DNA of 64,000 bases from Chloroflexota bacterium. GTDB taxonomy: Bacteria > Chloroflexota > Anaerolineae > Anaerolineales > Anaerolineaceae. The stretch is taken from the NCBI GenBank assembly GCA_021372725.1, contig JAJFTV010000033.1, positions 1 through 64,000 of the forward strand. Reading direction: 5' to 3'. The notes beneath the pieces were generated by a model. That model was not told the DNA's origin and made no database searches. It saw only the letters and a program-made list of their open reading frames with translations. This document shows positions 18,282 through 24,495 of this stretch, one piece after another (within the stretch, counting starts at the first letter, position 1; each line of letters opens with the position of its first letter). The position numbers and the translations under genes were made by a program.

Positions 18282-19163
18282 TCAACCGTGAAACGGTAAA
18301 GGTCGAACGATGGCATCGGTCATGCGGGCGACGCGCACCATGTATTCGACATCGTGCACCCGAATGATATCTGCCCCACGTGCAATTCCCACTGCAATGG
18401 CCGCAGCCGTTCCTTCAACGCGTTGGTCGGGCGGCAGGTTAAGTGTATAGCCGATAAACGATTTGCGCGATGGGCCAAGCAATACCGGATAGCCAAGCGC
18501 ACAGATTTCATTCAATCGGTTCAGCAATTCCAGGTTTTGTTCACGTGTTTTTCCAAAGCCAATGCCGGGATCCACAATGATTCTGTCAGTTTTCACACCC
18601 GCCCGCATGGCAAGGATGACACTCTGCATGAGACCATCCTTCACATCCTCAAGCAGATTTTTATACTCCACGTTGGTATAACGGCCACCCAGCCGTTTTT
18701 GCAGGCTGACGTCAGACGGGCGGCTGCGATTATGCATCAAAATCAGGGGTGCGCCGGTATGGGCAGCCAGATCGGCAATGGCCGGGTCTGCCTGAAGGCC
18801 CCAAATATCGTTAATCCAGTCTGCGCCGGCTTCGATTGCCGCGCGGGCTGTTTCGGATTTGTAGGTATCCACAGACAACCAGGTGTCCGGCAGGTTCTCA
18901 GCCAGGCATTGGATGACCGGAACCAGCCTGCTTGTTTCAACTTCAACACTGACAGCCTGCGCCCCGGGACGCGTACTTTCAGCCCCGATATCCAAAATAT
19001 CTGCTCCGGCTGCCACAAAAGCTTGCGCCTGCTTCAATGCGTCTGCTACGGGATCTTCACCTTGCAGCAGCCCGTCACCGGAAAAGCTGTCGGGTGTGAT
19101 GTTGATGATCCCCATGATATAGGTGCGTTTACCCCATTCAGGCAAAATCACCTTGCCTGTCAT
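18282..19163 (-). CDS. folP: Dihydropteroate synthase
   Basis: FolP joins 4-aminobenzoate to the pterin pyrophosphate made by FolK. The 293-residue TIM barrel shows NITPDSFSGDG (21-31), ADILDIGAESTRPGA, the VDTYKSE strand, DWINDIWGL, LMHNRS, VDPGIGFGKT, VLLGPSRKSF, and IRVHDVEYM near the end: all of the family's pterin and phosphate ligands. The start at 19163 is chosen because it overlaps the folK stop by four bases (ATGA). It is the last gene of a six-gene minus-strand operon that begins at 22747. Confidence 0.96.
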   Translation of the reverse strand: MTGKVILPEWGKRTYIMGIINITPDSFSGDGLLQGEDPVADALKQAQAFVAAGADILDIGAESTRPGAQAVSVEVETSRLVPVIQCLAENLPDTWLSVDTYKSETARAAIEAGADWINDIWGLQADPAIADLAAHTGAPLILMHNRSRPSDVSLQKRLGGRYTNVEYKNLLEDVKDGLMQSVILAMRAGVKTDRIIVDPGIGFGKTREQNLELLNRLNEICALGYPVLLGPSRKSFIGYTLNLPPDQRVEGTAAAIAVGIARGADIIRVHDVEYMVRVARMTDAIVRPLPFHG

Positions 19164-19660
19164 TCTTTTTCTCCCGATTCGGTATAACGGGTGACACCGG
19201 AGCAATCGATCTCCGCCATCAGTTGTTGGATGGTCTTGCCCAATACAGGGTGGATAAAGTCCGGGATCAAGTCAGCCAGCGGCACCAGAACAAAGGCACG
19301 TTCGGGGAAAAACGGGTGCGGGATGGTAATACCCTCCTGCTCAATGATCCGGCTGCCGTATAATACGATATCCATGTCAATAACCCGCGGCCCGTTCTTA
19401 AAGTTGGGTGTCCGCCCCATTTCTTTTTCAAGGTGTTTCATTACCGAAACGAGCTCAACGGGGGCGATTTCGGTTTCGATTTCGACAACCTGGTTGAGAA
19501 AACGAGGTTGGTTCAGATAACCCCACGGCTCGGTTTCGTAAACCGGAGAAACCCGCAGCACCGAAATACCCGCATAATCATTCAGCTTGTTGATGGCAAC
19601 TTGAAGTTTTGATTGTCGGTCTCCAAGATTACTGCCTGTCGATAGATATACCTTTGTCAC
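19160..19660 (-). CDS. folK: 6-hydroxymethyl-7,8-dihydropterin pyrophosphokinase
   Basis: FolK transfers pyrophosphate from ATP to hydroxymethyl-dihydropterin, the step before FolP. The 166 residues have the family signature: STGSNLGDR near the N-terminus, SPVYETEPWGY, FLNQVVEIET, and the metal-binding stretch GPRVIDMDIVLYG, then IPHPFFPERAFVLVPLADL. It overlaps hom upstream and folP downstream by four bases each, so the three are translationally coupled. No folB or folE is visible in the window. Confidence 0.96.
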   Translation of the reverse strand: MTKVYLSTGSNLGDRQSKLQVAINKLNDYAGISVLRVSPVYETEPWGYLNQPRFLNQVVEIETEIAPVELVSVMKHLEKEMGRTPNFKNGPRVIDMDIVLYGSRIIEQEGITIPHPFFPERAFVLVPLADLIPDFIHPVLGKTIQQLMAEIDCSGVTRYTESGEKE

Positions 19661-20688
19661 TGTATCACCCCTTTTCCACGCACAGCGTTGATTAAATCGG
19701 CCAACAAACCATAGGCGGTGGTCTCCGGTCCAGGGTCACTTTCGACGATACCCAGACCCGGCAGCATATCGGTATCAAACTGGATGTAAGAGCTGGTGCC
19801 GTTTATGTTAAACATTGGTGAAGAAGATTTTACTCGCTCCGGCCTCACCGTTGCAATGATCGTTTCTGCGCTGCACCGGGCGCTGCAAACCAGTTTCCAT
19901 CGCTCGCCTGCGGCTGTTGCTTCTTCGATCATCCGGGACGATATGCCGCGTATGCCGGTGCGCTCTACCATATATGGTGTCATCGGGCGATCCATCAACA
20001 CAGTTGTCAGGGCAGCAACTTTTACCGCTGCGTCCCAACCATCCACATCCGCATCGGGGTCAGTCTCGGTGATACCAATGGATTGAGCAAATCGTACAGC
20101 CTGGTCGAGGGTTTCACCATTTCTCATTCTTTCCAGTATCAAATTGGTGCATGAATTAAGAATGCCGGTGAAACCATTCAGTTCTGCAACGGGCAGTGCT
20201 TCGCGGAATAATGAGAAGATGGGTGCGCCGTCCATGACCGCCGATTCAAACATAAATTTCGAATGATGCTGCAAAGCCAACGCAGATAATTCCCTGTATC
20301 CGTACACAACAGGCCCCTTGTTGGCAGTGATGCCAAGCATGCCGCGCTTCAAGGCTGTTTTTAGATAATCTATTGCCGGTTGTCCGGTTTCATGATTGGT
20401 GGGTGAATTTTCAAATAGCACATTAGCAGGACATGTTTGAACGAATTCGATGATCGAGGAAGGTACCGGCATTTTTGACAATGCACTGATGTCAGAGGTA
20501 TGCAGAATCTGATCAAGATCAAACCCGTCTGGATCGATTGCAATGCCATGATGACCGGTAGCAATTCCAGTGATCCTGAACCGTATCCCGTGCTGCTCCA
20601 ACAGGACATCCCGTTTTTCTTGGAGTAAACAGATCAGAGACCTTCCCACATTACCAAATCCGACAAGTGCAAATGACAGATCGACCAT
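19657..20688 (-). CDS. hom: Homoserine dehydrogenase
   Basis: This enzyme reduces aspartate semialdehyde to homoserine, the branch to threonine and methionine. The 343-residue single-domain form lacks the ACT regulatory domain of the longer enzymes, so it may not be inhibited by threonine. It shows ALVGFGNVGRSL for NAD(P), PANVLFENSPT, ITANKGPV with the conserved Lys124, MDGAPIFSLFR, LNGFTGILNSCTNLIL and the catalytic ETDPDADVDGWDAAVK. It lies 21 bases after the kinase-like gene and overlaps folK by four bases. The pairing of threonine and folate genes is unusual and may reflect only shared transcription. Confidence 0.93.
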   Translation of the reverse strand: MVDLSFALVGFGNVGRSLICLLQEKRDVLLEQHGIRFRITGIATGHHGIAIDPDGFDLDQILHTSDISALSKMPVPSSIIEFVQTCPANVLFENSPTNHETGQPAIDYLKTALKRGMLGITANKGPVVYGYRELSALALQHHSKFMFESAVMDGAPIFSLFREALPVAELNGFTGILNSCTNLILERMRNGETLDQAVRFAQSIGITETDPDADVDGWDAAVKVAALTTVLMDRPMTPYMVERTGIRGISSRMIEEATAAGERWKLVCSARCSAETIIATVRPERVKSSSPMFNINGTSSYIQFDTDMLPGLGIVESDPGPETTAYGLLADLINAVRGKGVIQ

Positions 20689-20709
20689 ATCGACTCCAGG
20701 AACAGTATT

Positions 20710-21465
20710 TTATACCGGCGGCCAGGGAAATTGGCGTTGCTTTTCATCCGGCTTGGGGAAAACCCGACTTTTCAACAAGTTCATTCCGCGTTGACGCAGG
20801 GCATCGATTTCTTCCGGTAATATCAGCCGTCCCAGATTTTGTTGCAATGGTTCATCATTCGTCAGTTTGTGCAGGAACTCTTCCACATCCGCCAGCAGAT
20901 TATCCGGGATGGGTGTGCCGGAGAAGTCCCACACTACGGTACGCAATTTGTCCTGTTTATGAAAACACAAACCGTGATCGATCAACCAGATATGCCTGTT
21001 GTTATCGATCAAAAAATGACCACCTTTCCGGTCGGCATTATTAATCAGCAGATCAAAAACGACAACCGGCCGTGTTCTTTCAATATCTGCCGGGCTGAAA
21101 TTGAAATAATGATAGTTGGGGTCATGCTCGATGTAGACTTGCACCGAGCCCGGCCCCAGCGGGCCGTCCATCCGGAAAACCACCGGGGGTACCAACTCCC
21201 ACCCCAGGGCTTCCGAAACCAGATATGCGGCAGCTTCCCGTTTTTCAAGGCTTCCATAGGGGAAATCCCACAGCGGGCGTTCTCCACGCACAGGTTTGTA
21301 GACGGCAATGAACCGGCCAGGCGGTGAAATCACCTCCACCAGCAGAGTGTAATTGGAACCGGGAATAAATTGACCTTGCAGTTCCAGCTTGCCTGTTTGC
21401 AGGCAGTCAAGGAGGATATCTTTAGGAAACACATCCACAGAAAGTCCGCCAATACAGCAGATCAA
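20710..21465 (-). CDS. SCO1664-family protein, PI-kinase-like fold
   Basis: This family (TIGR03843 type) is known mainly from Actinobacteria, where it occurs with DUF3090, and is reported in Chloroflexi; weak similarity to phosphatidylinositol 3-/4-kinases has been noted. In the 251 residues kinase-like positions are visible: Lys57 in AVYKPVRG (ATP lysine), Glu77 in the following helix, NNADRKGGH with Asp145 as a likely catalytic loop, and LIDHG (Asp163) in the place of a DFG metal motif. The start TTG at 21465 overlaps the DUF3090 stop; it has no strong ribosome site of its own, so translational coupling is likely, and a GTG further in remains possible. The substrate is unknown. Confidence 0.85.
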   Translation of the reverse strand: MICCIGGLSVDVFPKDILLDCLQTGKLELQGQFIPGSNYTLLVEVISPPGRFIAVYKPVRGERPLWDFPYGSLEKREAAAYLVSEALGWELVPPVVFRMDGPLGPGSVQVYIEHDPNYHYFNFSPADIERTRPVVVFDLLINNADRKGGHFLIDNNRHIWLIDHGLCFHKQDKLRTVVWDFSGTPIPDNLLADVEEFLHKLTNDEPLQQNLGRLILPEEIDALRQRGMNLLKSRVFPKPDEKQRQFPWPPV

Positions 21466-21989
21466 CCATTTTTCCCATTTTTCTTGGGGCAGATGTGACC
21501 GGAAGGATCTTCGGGTTCACCGCAATATGGGCAAATACGTCGTCCACGGTCTGCAACGACCAATCCCCAACTCACCAATGCTTTAATCTGTGCTCGCGTG
21601 CAGTACAATCGGGCGGAAGCGGCTTCTTCAGGCTGTTTGTTGCTGGAAAGCATTTCACGAATGATCAAACTCACCATGTCGTTATCCATATCATAAGACA
21701 AACCCAAATCTCCAACCCGGAATAACGGGTCTACCGGAGGGTGAATATGCATCGTATTTTCATTGTAGTCTGCTGATGCATCCGGCAGGTCAGGATACCG
21801 TTCGGCCAGTTCATTCAGAAACTGTTCCACACCTGCCGCCATCGATTGAATCTGAAATTTCTCAATCAGAAGGGTTAGAGTACGTTCTCCTTTCCAGGCC
21901 TGCAAATAAAATACACGTTTTCCAGGAGCACCGATGGCGTCAGTGGTGATGTGATCGACCGGATTAAAAATGATCTCTTTTTCCGACAT
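21462..21989 (-). CDS. DUF3090 family protein
   Basis: A 175-residue protein of unknown function, family TIGR03847. It has the typical opening EIIFNPVDHITTDAIGAPGKR, here seen as FNPVDHITTDAIG, then FYLQAWKGERTLTLLIEKFQ, and ends in a small zinc-ribbon-like motif with C153, C156, H165 and C167. The C-terminal cysteines suggest metal or nucleic-acid/protein contact. It is coupled to the SCO1664-like gene by a TTGA overlap. In Actinobacteria the two are usually joined by a third, phosphomutase-like protein; here a glutamine amidotransferase stands 38 bases upstream instead. ATG 21989 is preferred over a TTG six codons earlier. Confidence 0.87.
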   Translation of the reverse strand: MSEKEIIFNPVDHITTDAIGAPGKRVFYLQAWKGERTLTLLIEKFQIQSMAAGVEQFLNELAERYPDLPDASADYNENTMHIHPPVDPLFRVGDLGLSYDMDNDMVSLIIREMLSSNKQPEEAASARLYCTRAQIKALVSWGLVVADRGRRICPYCGEPEDPSGHICPKKNGKNG

Positions 21990-22027
21990 TTTATCTACAC
22001 TTTCCAATCCAGTGGTTTTTTATAAGG

Positions 22028-22747
22028 TCAGTTCGAAGATGCGTTGATGAAGGTACGGAACAGGTTGAGCATCGGTTCAATATCGACAAGTTCTTCAGGA
22101 TGCCATTGAACGGCGATACCAAATGGATGATCGGTAAGTTCAATTCCTTCGACAAGTCCGTCGGAGGAGTGCGCAGTTGCCCGCAGATTGCTCCCCAGCT
22201 TGCGCACGCCTTGATGATGAAGGCTGTTTACCCATACATCCTTCTCTCCCAGCACCCGTTGCAGTTTGCTGGAAGATTCTGTTCGAATGGTGTGTGCTAA
22301 AAAGTTACGCGGCAGGTCCGGATAACAGGTATGAAAGAGGACATCCGGAAACTGGTCATAAAGATGCGTATACAGGGTCCCTCCAAGCGCGACATTGACC
22401 AATTCGATCCCGCGGCAGATACCCATAAATGGTTTGTTATTCTTGACCGCCCAGTTGAGCATGGCGATTTCCATTTCATCACGCTCCGGATCCACCTCGG
22501 TAACCTGGGGGTGCATGGGAGTTCCATAACAAGCCGGATTGATATCGACACCGCCGGTGAACAAAATACCACCAAGGGAACCGAGCAGATTGTTGAAGAG
22601 GTCCGGGGCAATGCCGGAGGGTATGATAACCGGTATTCCTCCGGCCCTGAGTACTGCGTGGATATATGAATTATTGATTGCCGTACGGGCCAGTGAATGT
22701 CCCTGCACAAATTGATTCGCTGTGATACCGATGAGAGGGTTAGTCAT
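22028..22747 (-). CDS. Class I glutamine amidotransferase, PuuD-type gamma-glutamyl hydrolase
   Basis: The family hydrolyses gamma-glutamyl amides such as gamma-glutamyl-GABA, or acts as a free-standing amidotransferase. The 239 residues carry the nucleophile elbow MGICRGIELVNVALGG (Cys111), the strand motif GGILFTGGVDINPACYG, VNSLHHQGV, and the His-Glu pair in VQWHPEE. It is the first gene of the operon with DUF3090, the SCO1664-like protein, hom, folK and folP. An extended -10 promoter lies about 60 bases upstream. No putrescine-utilisation genes are near, so the PuuD substrate should not be assumed. Confidence 0.87.
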   Translation of the reverse strand: MTNPLIGITANQFVQGHSLARTAINNSYIHAVLRAGGIPVIIPSGIAPDLFNNLLGSLGGILFTGGVDINPACYGTPMHPQVTEVDPERDEMEIAMLNWAVKNNKPFMGICRGIELVNVALGGTLYTHLYDQFPDVLFHTCYPDLPRNFLAHTIRTESSSKLQRVLGEKDVWVNSLHHQGVRKLGSNLRATAHSSDGLVEGIELTDHPFGIAVQWHPEELVDIEPMLNLFRTFINASSN

Positions 22748-22801
22748 CTTCTATCCTCGAAGTAATGGATCATCACAGGCCTTTACCTGTAATGTCCATA
22801 A

Positions 22802-22828
22802 AGTATACCAGAGAATGATTTTTGACAA
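22802..22828 (-). promoter_or_regulatory. Extended -10 promoter of the amidotransferase-hom-fol operon
   Basis: The minus strand shows TTGTCA (22823-22828), a short 15-base spacer and TGGTATACT, an extended -10 (TATACT at 22802-22807), about 55 bases before the first ATG of the operon. Confidence 0.55.
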
Positions 22829-22983
22829 GTTTGAAACCAGACCGGATAGAGCACACTATAAATAACAGGGGTAAACTTACCTAATATAGCGGAACTGATC
22901 AAGTGAATATGTCTATTCAAGGATGGCTTCTTCCTTTACCAGTATTCTCTTGGTCTTGACTAAAACAACACACAGAGTTAGGG

Positions 22984-23012
22984 TTGTCAGGATTATGAAT
23001 CACCGCTATAAT
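22984..23012 (+). promoter_or_regulatory. Sigma-70-type promoter for the S1 protein gene
   Basis: TTGTCA (22984-22989), exactly 17 bases, then a perfect TATAAT (23007-23012), 37 bases before the start codon. It is one of the best promoter matches in the window. Confidence 0.8.
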
Positions 23013-23049
23013 GTGATGTGACTTTAACGAACCCGGAGAATTTGAAAGC

Positions 23050-24495
23050 ATGGATCAAAACGCCGCCCAACTCGGGATGGGGGTTAATCCCGAGACCGAG
23101 AAAAACGCCAATAAAAATGGCGAAATATATAACAACATGGCCTCATTGCTGGCACAAGAGGGTGTTGACATTGATTTCCCCCAACAAGGTGAAACACGAA
23201 CAGGCGTGGTTGCCAGTATCAGTCAGGGACAGATTCTGGTTAGCGTGGGGACTAAATCGGAAGGCGTCATCAGCGGGAAGGAATTCGATATCATTCCCCA
23301 GGAAGAACTGGAAAAACTACATGTTGGCGATGAATTACCGGTCTTTGTCATCAACCCGGAAGACCAGAATGGTAATCTCGTCCTTTCCTATGTGCGCGCC
23401 CTTGAGGAATCGGCCTGGCAAAAAGCGGAAGCAATGCTGGAGTCAAAAGAATCCTATTCCAGCAAGGTGGAAAGCTATAACAAAGGTGGTTTGATCGTTC
23501 CAATGGGCAGCTTGCGTGGTTTTGTGCCTGCGTCGCAGATCAGTCTGACACGACGCATGAGCCTGAGCAATGGCAACCCGGAGGAGCGGTGGGGCAAGTT
23601 TGTTGGCGAAGACATTGTCGTTTCTGTGATTGAAGTTGATCGTGAGCGCCGGCGTCTCATTCTCTCGGAACGCGCAGCCAGTACCGAAACTCGTGAAACG
23701 ATTAAAGAAAAAGTCATCGAGGATCTTAAGGAAGGTGATATCAAAACCGGCCGTGTGACCAGCCTGGCCGATTTCGGTGCTTTTGTTAATATCAGTGGCG
23801 CTGACGGTTTGGTTCATCTCTCCGAGATTTCGTGGGAACGGATTTCAAATCCCAGCGAGGTTCTTAAGGTTGGTCAGGAAGTTAAAGTAAAGATCATCAG
23901 TGTGGATCGTGAAAAGAAACGCATCGGGTTATCCATCCGCCAGCTTCTTGAAGATCCGCTGGTAAAAAAGCTGGAAACCTACAAAAAGGGCCAGCTCGTG
24001 GAAGGTAAAATCACCCGTCTCACCAAGTTTGGGGCATTCGCCCGCCTTGATGACGATGTGGAAGGATTGATCCATATCTCCGAAATCAGCGAAAAACGCA
24101 TTGAGCACCCCAAAGAAATTCTCAATGAAGGGGATGTGTTGACACTGCGTGTGATTAAAGTTGACCCTGCCAATCACCGGGTCGGTTTGAGCTTGCGGCG
24201 TGTCGATTCTTTGGCCTATGCCGATATGGATTGGCAATCTCTGTTGGATCAGGAATTGCTTGCCGATGAAGGTGATAATGTTTCCACAGCGGCACAACCA
24301 GAATCTGAAACCGAAACCCCGGCCGAAACATCCAGCGAAGAAGGATCGTCGCAGGCAGAAGCATCGGTTGCAGAAGTGTCGGTTACAGAAGAATCACCTC
24401 TAGAAGTATCACCTGCTGAGACAATGCCCACTGAAACACCCGGGGAAGAAGGATCTTTACCTGCTGCATCGGAACAAAACGAAAACGAAGGGTAA
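23050..24495 (+). CDS. rpsA: S1 RNA-binding domain protein, ribosomal protein S1-like
   Basis: S1 proteins bind mRNA and bring it to the 30S subunit. The 481 residues contain four S1 domains: about 47-115, 132-206, 230-297 and 314-384. The third and fourth carry the best motif matches (SLADFGAFVNISGADGLVHLSE, seen as DFGAFVNI...GLVHLSE; KFGAFARLDDDVEGLIHISE). This is a four-domain S1 as in many Gram-positive and Chloroflexota genomes, not the six-domain form of E. coli. The last 75 residues are acidic, Glu/Ser/Thr/Pro-rich and disordered. GGAG sits 11 bases before ATG 23050. A strong promoter is directly upstream. Whether it is a true ribosomal S1 or a related factor is inferred. Confidence 0.88.
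   Translation: MDQNAAQLGMGVNPETEKNANKNGEIYNNMASLLAQEGVDIDFPQQGETRTGVVASISQGQILVSVGTKSEGVISGKEFDIIPQEELEKLHVGDELPVFVINPEDQNGNLVLSYVRALEESAWQKAEAMLESKESYSSKVESYNKGGLIVPMGSLRGFVPASQISLTRRMSLSNGNPEERWGKFVGEDIVVSVIEVDRERRRLILSERAASTETRETIKEKVIEDLKEGDIKTGRVTSLADFGAFVNISGADGLVHLSEISWERISNPSEVLKVGQEVKVKIISVDREKKRIGLSIRQLLEDPLVKKLETYKKGQLVEGKITRLTKFGAFARLDDDVEGLIHISEISEKRIEHPKEILNEGDVLTLRVIKVDPANHRVGLSLRRVDSLAYADMDWQSLLDQELLADEGDNVSTAAQPESETETPAETSSEEGSSQAEASVAEVSVTEESPLEVSPAETMPTETPGEEGSLPAASEQNENEG

Follow-up and report, generated by a model that had tools for sequence, protein, structure and literature searches.

The window analysed here, a stretch of 64,000 nucleotides (positions 1 to 64,000 of contig JAJFTV010000033.1, from a Chloroflexota bacterium of the family Anaerolineaceae), carries a six-gene operon in which a DUF3090 gene and a SCO1664-family kinase gene stand between a PuuD-like amidotransferase gene and the genes hom, folK and folP. 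The families TIGR03843, TIGR03847 and TIGR03848 are described as a trio, and the DUF3090/SCO1664/phosphatase set occurs in mycobacteria. The locus raises the question of what two members of this trio do in such surroundings, and whether the amidotransferase has taken the place of the third, phosphomutase-like member, as an earlier note on this DNA had suggested. Searches of open-access papers turned up none that assigns a function to DUF3090 or SCO1664, or a fold to DUF3090. Our best reading of the window operon is a mostly ordinary housekeeping operon, for amino-acid and folate metabolism, carrying two parts of the trio. For the trio itself we tentatively propose, with confidence somewhat short of even, a reversible-phosphorylation module, with the SCO1664 protein as kinase, a histidine phosphatase reversing its action and DUF3090 as effector or adaptor.

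The operon and its conserved core

All six open reading frames (ORFs) are collinear minus-strand genes, the first beginning at 22747 and the last ending at 18282. Their identities were obtained with Pfam and NCBIfam hidden Markov model profiles against the ORFs of the window, and these agree with the amidotransferase, DUF3090, kinase-like, hom, folK and folP assignments made earlier from the sequence alone. The features are as follows:

22748..23049, no strand: intergenic region separating the operon from a divergent, putatively S1-type gene that starts at 23050 on the plus strand
22028..22747, minus: Peptidase_C26 (PuuD-like) gamma-glutamyl hydrolase/glutaminase-type protein, first gene, 239 amino acids; Peptidase_C26 212.5 bits, cut-off 20.5
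21990..22027, minus: 38-base gap between the amidotransferase and DUF3090 genes, the position of murI in 33 of the 35 family loci with the amidotransferase
21462..21989, minus: DUF3090 protein, 175 amino acids; PF11290 145.8 bits, cut-off 27; TIGR03847 136.2 bits, cut-off 117.25
20710..21465, minus: SCO1664-family atypical kinase; TIGR03843 272.6 bits, curated cut-off 172.4
19657..20688, minus: hom, homoserine dehydrogenase; PF00742 144 bits
19160..19660, minus: folK, HPPK; profile score 143 bits
18282..19163, minus: folP, dihydropteroate synthase; DHPS profile 300 bits; its ATG at 19163 overlaps the folK stop

With the likely starts of DUF3090 (ATG at 21989) and folP (ATG at 19163), the spacings in gene order are +38, -4, +21, -4 and -4 bases. 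These three four-base overlaps and two gaps confirm the compact arrangement described before, with no gap above 38 bases, and such tight spacing makes one transcript for all six genes plausible. A single, weak minus-strand promoter-like match was observed at 22798-22769 in the divergent intergenic region, and the promoter and terminator scans gave counts near chance.

To place the operon in context, a family draw of 101 Anaerolineaceae genomes was used, of which 68 were DUF3090-positive and 65 of these, the window included, had their neighbourhoods mapped. Neighbouring genes were taken from ORF calling and profiles built for this analysis, not from annotation. Some family loci stop at contig edges, and loci with enough sequence are called usable; a stricter gap rule, which some over-long ORFs fail, was also applied. 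SCO1664 was found on the same strand and within 6 kb of DUF3090 in 63 of the 65 family loci (53 of 62 under the stricter rule), and hom lay within the same distance in 50 (46 of 59 under that rule), folK in 36 and folP in 33. Since SCO1664 and hom recur beside DUF3090, the six-gene arrangement is not a product of chance. Additionally, a phylum draw of 301 genomes contained 197 DUF3090-positive ones, of which 80, picked for spread and not at random, had their neighbourhoods mapped. The outside-family set of neighbourhoods comprises 76 loci; here, hom was observed just downstream of the DUF3090-SCO1664 pair in 14 of 75 usable loci, all in the sister family f2.

The amidotransferase shows a different distribution. 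Of the 60 Anaerolineaceae loci with enough upstream sequence, 35 have it no more than 2.2 kb before DUF3090, whereas none of the 72 usable loci outside the family has it. Its linkage to the pair thus extends to other genomes of the family, and the condition that the earlier note named as refuting its reading, a lack of such linkage, does not apply. Furthermore, the glutamate racemase gene murI lies between the amidotransferase and DUF3090 in 33 of the 35 linked loci, the exceptions being the window and locus L130. In locus L035, murI is an Asp/Glu racemase gene by Pfam and overlaps the amidotransferase gene by four bases. Among the remaining usable family loci, 5 of the 60 have murI alone and 20 have neither gene. 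A named scan, which covers the best 80 of 593 loci and is biased towards sequences similar to those of the window, has 3 loci with both puuD and murI, one of them from Bellilinea. Given the family linkage with murI in between and none outside the family, the closest tie of the amidotransferase is to murI. It is a lineage-specific neighbour and not part of the conserved core, which consists of DUF3090 and the SCO1664 kinase, two parts of the actinobacterial trio. On the mapping of 65 family and 76 outside loci, the amidotransferase was rejected as a functional replacement of the phosphomutase, and a misleading lead is removed.

The full Anaerolineaceae operon comprises the C26 gamma-glutamyl hydrolase, murI, DUF3090, the SCO1664 kinase, hom, an unknown gene in some genomes, folK and folP, and the window operon is a shortened form that lacks murI. 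Searched for murI, the window assembly (92% complete, 200 contigs) gave at best 36 bits against a cut-off of 147. All 9 of the other family genomes tested carry murI above the cut-off, and G320, the genome of locus L130, has it on another contig. The murI gene of the window organism may have been relocated and be missing from the incomplete assembly, or it may have been lost.

Three side observations concern DUF3090 loci. In 4 of 7 inspected loci without puuD and murI (L036, L122, L141 and L144), a gene read as dnaE-like lies directly upstream of DUF3090. A protein of 210-232 amino acids is encoded between hom and folK in L126:5909-6607 and L117:10410-11042, with no Pfam match at E 0.01. Genome G203 carries two DUF3090-SCO1664 pairs on different contigs (G203:C48 and G203:C125).

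The phosphomutase-like partner

Compared with the actinobacterial TIGR03843/TIGR03847/TIGR03848 trio, the window DUF3090 and SCO1664 proteins pass the curated cut-offs, and their genes keep the same order with a four-base overlap. In contrast to the trio, the window operon has no phosphomutase-like gene (MSMEG_4193 type; MSMEG_4192 we take to be the DUF3090 gene), and a C26 hydrolase gene stands upstream and hom and folate genes downstream. The trio families are already named in NCBIfam; what the Anaerolineaceae operon adds is a variant arrangement in which puuD, murI, hom and folate genes surround the pair.

The absence of the third partner from the operon, stated in the earlier note, was confirmed: no TIGR03848 gene was identified among the six, and the best match in the whole window assembly scored 102 bits against a curated cut-off of 203.85, which in an assembly of this completeness does not prove the gene absent from the organism. 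Within the family, none of the 65 loci has a TIGR03848 gene within 6 kb of DUF3090. In the phylum draw, 18 of 81 loci (by the stricter rule, 16 of 74) have such a gene immediately before DUF3090, and in the named scan it is upstream of SCO1664 in 50 of the 80 loci, including 15 of the 16 actinobacterial ones.

The earlier note had recommended looking for the phosphomutase-like member elsewhere in the genome. Many sister genomes indeed have an unlinked match to it, mostly of 147-214 bits and thus mostly below the curated cut-off; linked trio copies score 155-309 bits, the lowest being that of L051 with 155. An unlinked match of at least 165 bits was detected in 52 of 68 DUF3090-positive and 1 of 33 DUF3090-negative family genomes, and with the threshold at 140 bits the numbers rise to 56 of 68 and 5 of 33, respectively. 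By genus, at 140 bits, a match was present in 27 of 33 DUF3090-positive and 1 of 7 negative genera (p 0.0014); in these Fisher tests phylogeny is allowed for only by this genus count, which was made by hand from tables. Because the matches elsewhere track DUF3090 in the family genomes, the phosphatase looks unlinked in this family and not replaced by the amidotransferase.

Across the 301 phylum genomes, DUF3090 and the phosphatase (at E 1e-30) occur together in 104 genomes, DUF3090 alone in 93, the phosphatase alone in 19 and neither in 85. This association is weaker than that of DUF3090 with SCO1664, for which the corresponding numbers are 157, 40 (DUF3090 alone), 9 (SCO1664 alone) and 95. 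In the named scan, 6 of the 80 loci have SCO1664 but no DUF3090 that could be recognised in the 3 kb before it (L232, L241, L243, L245, L251 and L258); three of these are from Dehalococcoidia, and L258 has a phosphatase match upstream. The Mycobacterium tuberculosis member of the trio phosphatases is presumably Rv2135c. Acid phosphatase activity and no mutase activity are given for Rv2135c in an excerpt of PMC3866925.

A candidate phosphorylation module

An AlphaFold model of the SCO1664 protein, built with 80 sequences, reached a predicted local distance difference test (pLDDT) score of 94.4, and its best structural match was PI4KII-beta (9hhm, Z 18.7, 3.7 Å over 224 residues, 20% identity), followed by FAM20 (Z 13.8-15.9), CtkA (13-14) and HipA (near 10.7). 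Foldseek agrees, with E 1e-8. The family shares with PI4-kinase type II, FAM20 and HipA the fold, the N-lobe lysine and glutamate, the DR catalytic loop and the metal-binding aspartate; it differs from them in its size, about 250 amino acids in all, and in its low sequence identity. Residues K57, E77, D145 and D163 are 100% conserved in the 80 sequences, the window's included. In profile alignments the YKP lysine, the helix-C glutamate and the DR loop fall on the matching FAM20/PI4K elements, with weak sequence scores. Judging from the model, the SCO1664 protein should be an active atypical PI4KII/FAM20-type kinase.

For DUF3090, the AlphaFold model (84 sequences, pLDDT 91.4) gave PUR-alpha repeats I-II in all five best structural rows, at Z 8.2-8.8 over 109-114 residues; the top match, a moderate one, had Z 8.8 and 3.4 Å over 113 residues. 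Foldseek by itself was weak, its best E being 0.028. Next in the structural list came two functionally uncharacterised cyanobacterial proteins, at Z about 6 (6.1), and Whirly proteins at about 5. DUF3090 may resemble PUR-domain proteins such as PURA and Drosophila Pur-alpha in its predicted fold; unlike them, it has an additional zinc ribbon, and no sequence match to them was detectable. The ribbon residues C153, C156, H165 and C167, a C-terminal CxxC..HxC motif, are 90-93% conserved in the 84 sequences. An excerpt of PMC9425974 notes this motif in DUF3090, and one of PMC3764826 presents Borrelia Bpur as a bacterial PUR member. On the model, DUF3090 likely has a PUR/Whirly-like fold, and we put forward as a hypothesis that it may bind nucleic acid.

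Phosphatases appear beside DUF3090 in two further arrangements. In 2 of the 80 named loci, L231:5362-6417 and L249:5699-6916, a histidine phosphatase and DUF3090 share one open frame. In the L231 fusion (351 amino acids) the joint lacks an ATG and has an in-frame GTG instead. A second DUF3090 gene comes next in L231, with SCO1664 after it, and neither DUF3090 copy of this locus keeps the zinc ribbon. The L249 fusion (405 amino acids) has an in-frame ATG at the joint. When 250 loci were scanned for DUF3090 fused to the kinase, phosphatase, puuD, murI, hom or a tyrosine-type phosphatase, only L231 and L249 were found. A long DUF3090 frame in L017 (739 amino acids) was rejected as a fusion and read as read-through of the upstream frame in DNA of high guanine-cytosine content.

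In the family f19, five genomes are DUF3090-positive and none has a SCO1664 match. In all five (loci L021, L019, L066, L020 and L110), the gene immediately after DUF3090 encodes a dual-specificity/tyrosine-type phosphatase that has a CX5R motif, two of these proteins being assigned by Pfam and the rest by similarity. A further case is the second DUF3090 copy of genome G065 (L025), and the phosphatase after DUF3090 in the f19 and G065 loci carries VACMGGVGRTGT. Two unrelated phosphatase families beside DUF3090, together with a kinase, point to reversible phosphorylation. As a separate observation, a LigD-type DNA ligase gene lies three called ORFs upstream in L065, a locus that covers the same place as L021.

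Gene order, family membership, catalytic-residue conservation, predicted folds, co-occurrence and the two fusions were computed here and form the basis of the proposed module. The SCO1664 protein would act as an active PI4KII/FAM20-type kinase, and the histidine phosphatase, whose gene in many sister genomes lies away from the operon, would reverse its action. DUF3090, with its PUR/Whirly-like domain and zinc ribbon, would serve as an effector or adaptor that may bind RNA or single-stranded DNA, and kinase and phosphatase together would set its activity. The genes hom and those for folate would only be co-expressed with the module. From the computed features we infer phosphorylation itself, its substrate, the binding of nucleic acid and the mere co-expression of hom and folate genes.

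Several observations weigh against this module, and our confidence in it is reduced by the low scores of the unlinked phosphatase matches, most of which do not reach the curated cut-off. The cut-off of 204 bits for TIGR03848 is passed by only 5 of the 101 family genomes, and the trio-type identity of the unlinked copies relies on the score bands of 140 and 165 bits, which were picked after the data had been seen. At the lower band, 12 of the 68 DUF3090-positive family genomes, the window's included, have no phosphatase match, and 5 of the 33 negative ones have one. Phylum-wide, SCO1664 and the phosphatase show no association at a loose threshold (p 0.35), and 40 of the 197 DUF3090-positive genomes have no SCO1664. 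Both fusions come from Anaerolineae metagenome assemblies and have a possible in-frame start at the joint.

The evidence on DUF3090 is subject to similar reservations. Foldseek on its model returned nothing below 0.001, no PUR protein appeared among profile hits in PDB sequences up to E 10, and the 25 Pfam families listed for DUF3090, out of 47, did not include PurA, although a PUR family could be one of the other 22. The PUR match is by fold only, and a fold does not prove function: SsgB, which is not known to bind nucleic acid, sits lower in the same structural match list. The strict zinc-ribbon pattern was present in 185 of 244 DUF3090 ORFs, some of them duplicate or cut. As an obvious phosphosubstrate DUF3090 was rejected, with no Ser or Thr conserved above 68% and one Tyr, Y99, at 83%.

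In the most specific form of the proposal, which we consider doubtful, DUF3090 would bind nucleic acid through two PUR-fold repeats, carry a zinc ribbon in addition, and be controlled by a miniature PI4KII-like kinase together with phosphatases recruited from two unrelated families. If true, it would be a phosphorylation-controlled regulator of RNA or single-stranded DNA conserved across Actinomycetota and Chloroflexota; no such regulator was found described in the open-access literature. As a set, DUF3090, SCO1664 and the phosphatase are characteristic of Actinobacteria, and the two little-known proteins of the window operon, DUF3090 and SCO1664, look like part of an on/off phosphorylation switch common to Chloroflexota and Actinobacteria. 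The fold assignments, the fusions and the phosphatase swap lead to a testable kinase/phosphatase/effector model for three poorly known genes.

Other possible substrates and the metabolic neighbours

The kinase and phosphatase might instead act on a soluble metabolite, in damage repair or salvage, with DUF3090 as regulator or chaperone and the operon partners uninformative. Consistent with this, eight trio phosphatases match the alpha-ribazole phosphatase model (97-121 bits) and PspA (59-108 bits), all below the cut-offs of those models, and the upstream neighbour varies among murI, a dnaE-like gene and a phosphatase gene. However, the phosphatase-DUF3090 fusion and the different phosphatase family in f19 suggest a central DUF3090, and a soluble substrate appears rather unlikely to us.

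We regard as improbable a second substrate class, a lipid or inositol head group phosphorylated as by PI4KII, with the phosphatase reversing the reaction and DUF3090 as accessory. The nearest fold is that of PI4KII, and according to an excerpt of PMC4255298, SCO1664 in Actinobacteria has a link to mshC, a gene of the inositol-using pathway to mycothiol. However, the same fold class also holds the FAM20 protein and sugar kinases and HipA. Furthermore, most Anaerolineae are not known to synthesise phosphatidylinositol.

The adjacent hom gene could suggest that the SCO1664 protein is a homoserine kinase acting on the product of its neighbour. This would fit the neighbourhood counts of hom, which accompanies the pair in 50 of 65 family loci and in 14 of 75 loci elsewhere, and the score of ThrB in the window assembly of at most 25.5 bits against a cut-off of 168, in a search that covered the ThrB type of homoserine kinase only. 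It is nevertheless very improbable, because six family genomes (G104, G301, G302, G307, G308 and G309) carry both ThrB above the cut-off and SCO1664; in addition, a hom match at most 3 kb downstream of SCO1664 was seen in 0 of 16 actinobacterial loci at the threshold used, some of these loci being short.

The enzyme type of the amidotransferase bears on the remaining alternative. Its protein carries both the GICRG nucleophile and the QWHPE motif. It shares the C26 family and catalytic motifs with PuuD, the gamma-glutamyl-GABA hydrolase; in contrast to it, the protein stays below the curated cut-off of the PuuD equivalog NF008471 (150.6 bits, cut-off 266) and is paired with murI in relatives. 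Its nearest solved relatives include PuuD, a stand-alone gamma-glutamyl hydrolase, with 141 bits to 6vtv. The ATP- and glutamine-dependent modification step suggested in the earlier note, in which the amidotransferase would feed glutamine-derived ammonia to the kinase-like protein and DUF3090, draws on the adjacency in the window, the linkage within the family, the GATase fold and the nucleophile motif, and it is hardly tenable in view of the intervening murI, the absence of the gene from 25 of 60 family loci and from all usable outside loci, the stand-alone hydrolase relatives, and the lack of any ATP-dependent amide-forming synthetase among the other five operon genes by Pfam and NCBIfam profiles.

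Apart from the reversible-phosphorylation module that we favour, the folate end of the operon offers a minor observation. The window folP (18282-19660 with folK directly before it) scores 392 bits to the Sul4 model, whose cut-off is 600. An excerpt of PMC5732528 proposes a Chloroflexi origin for Sul4, with a partial folK upstream. An operon of this type would be a plausible native context of Sul4.

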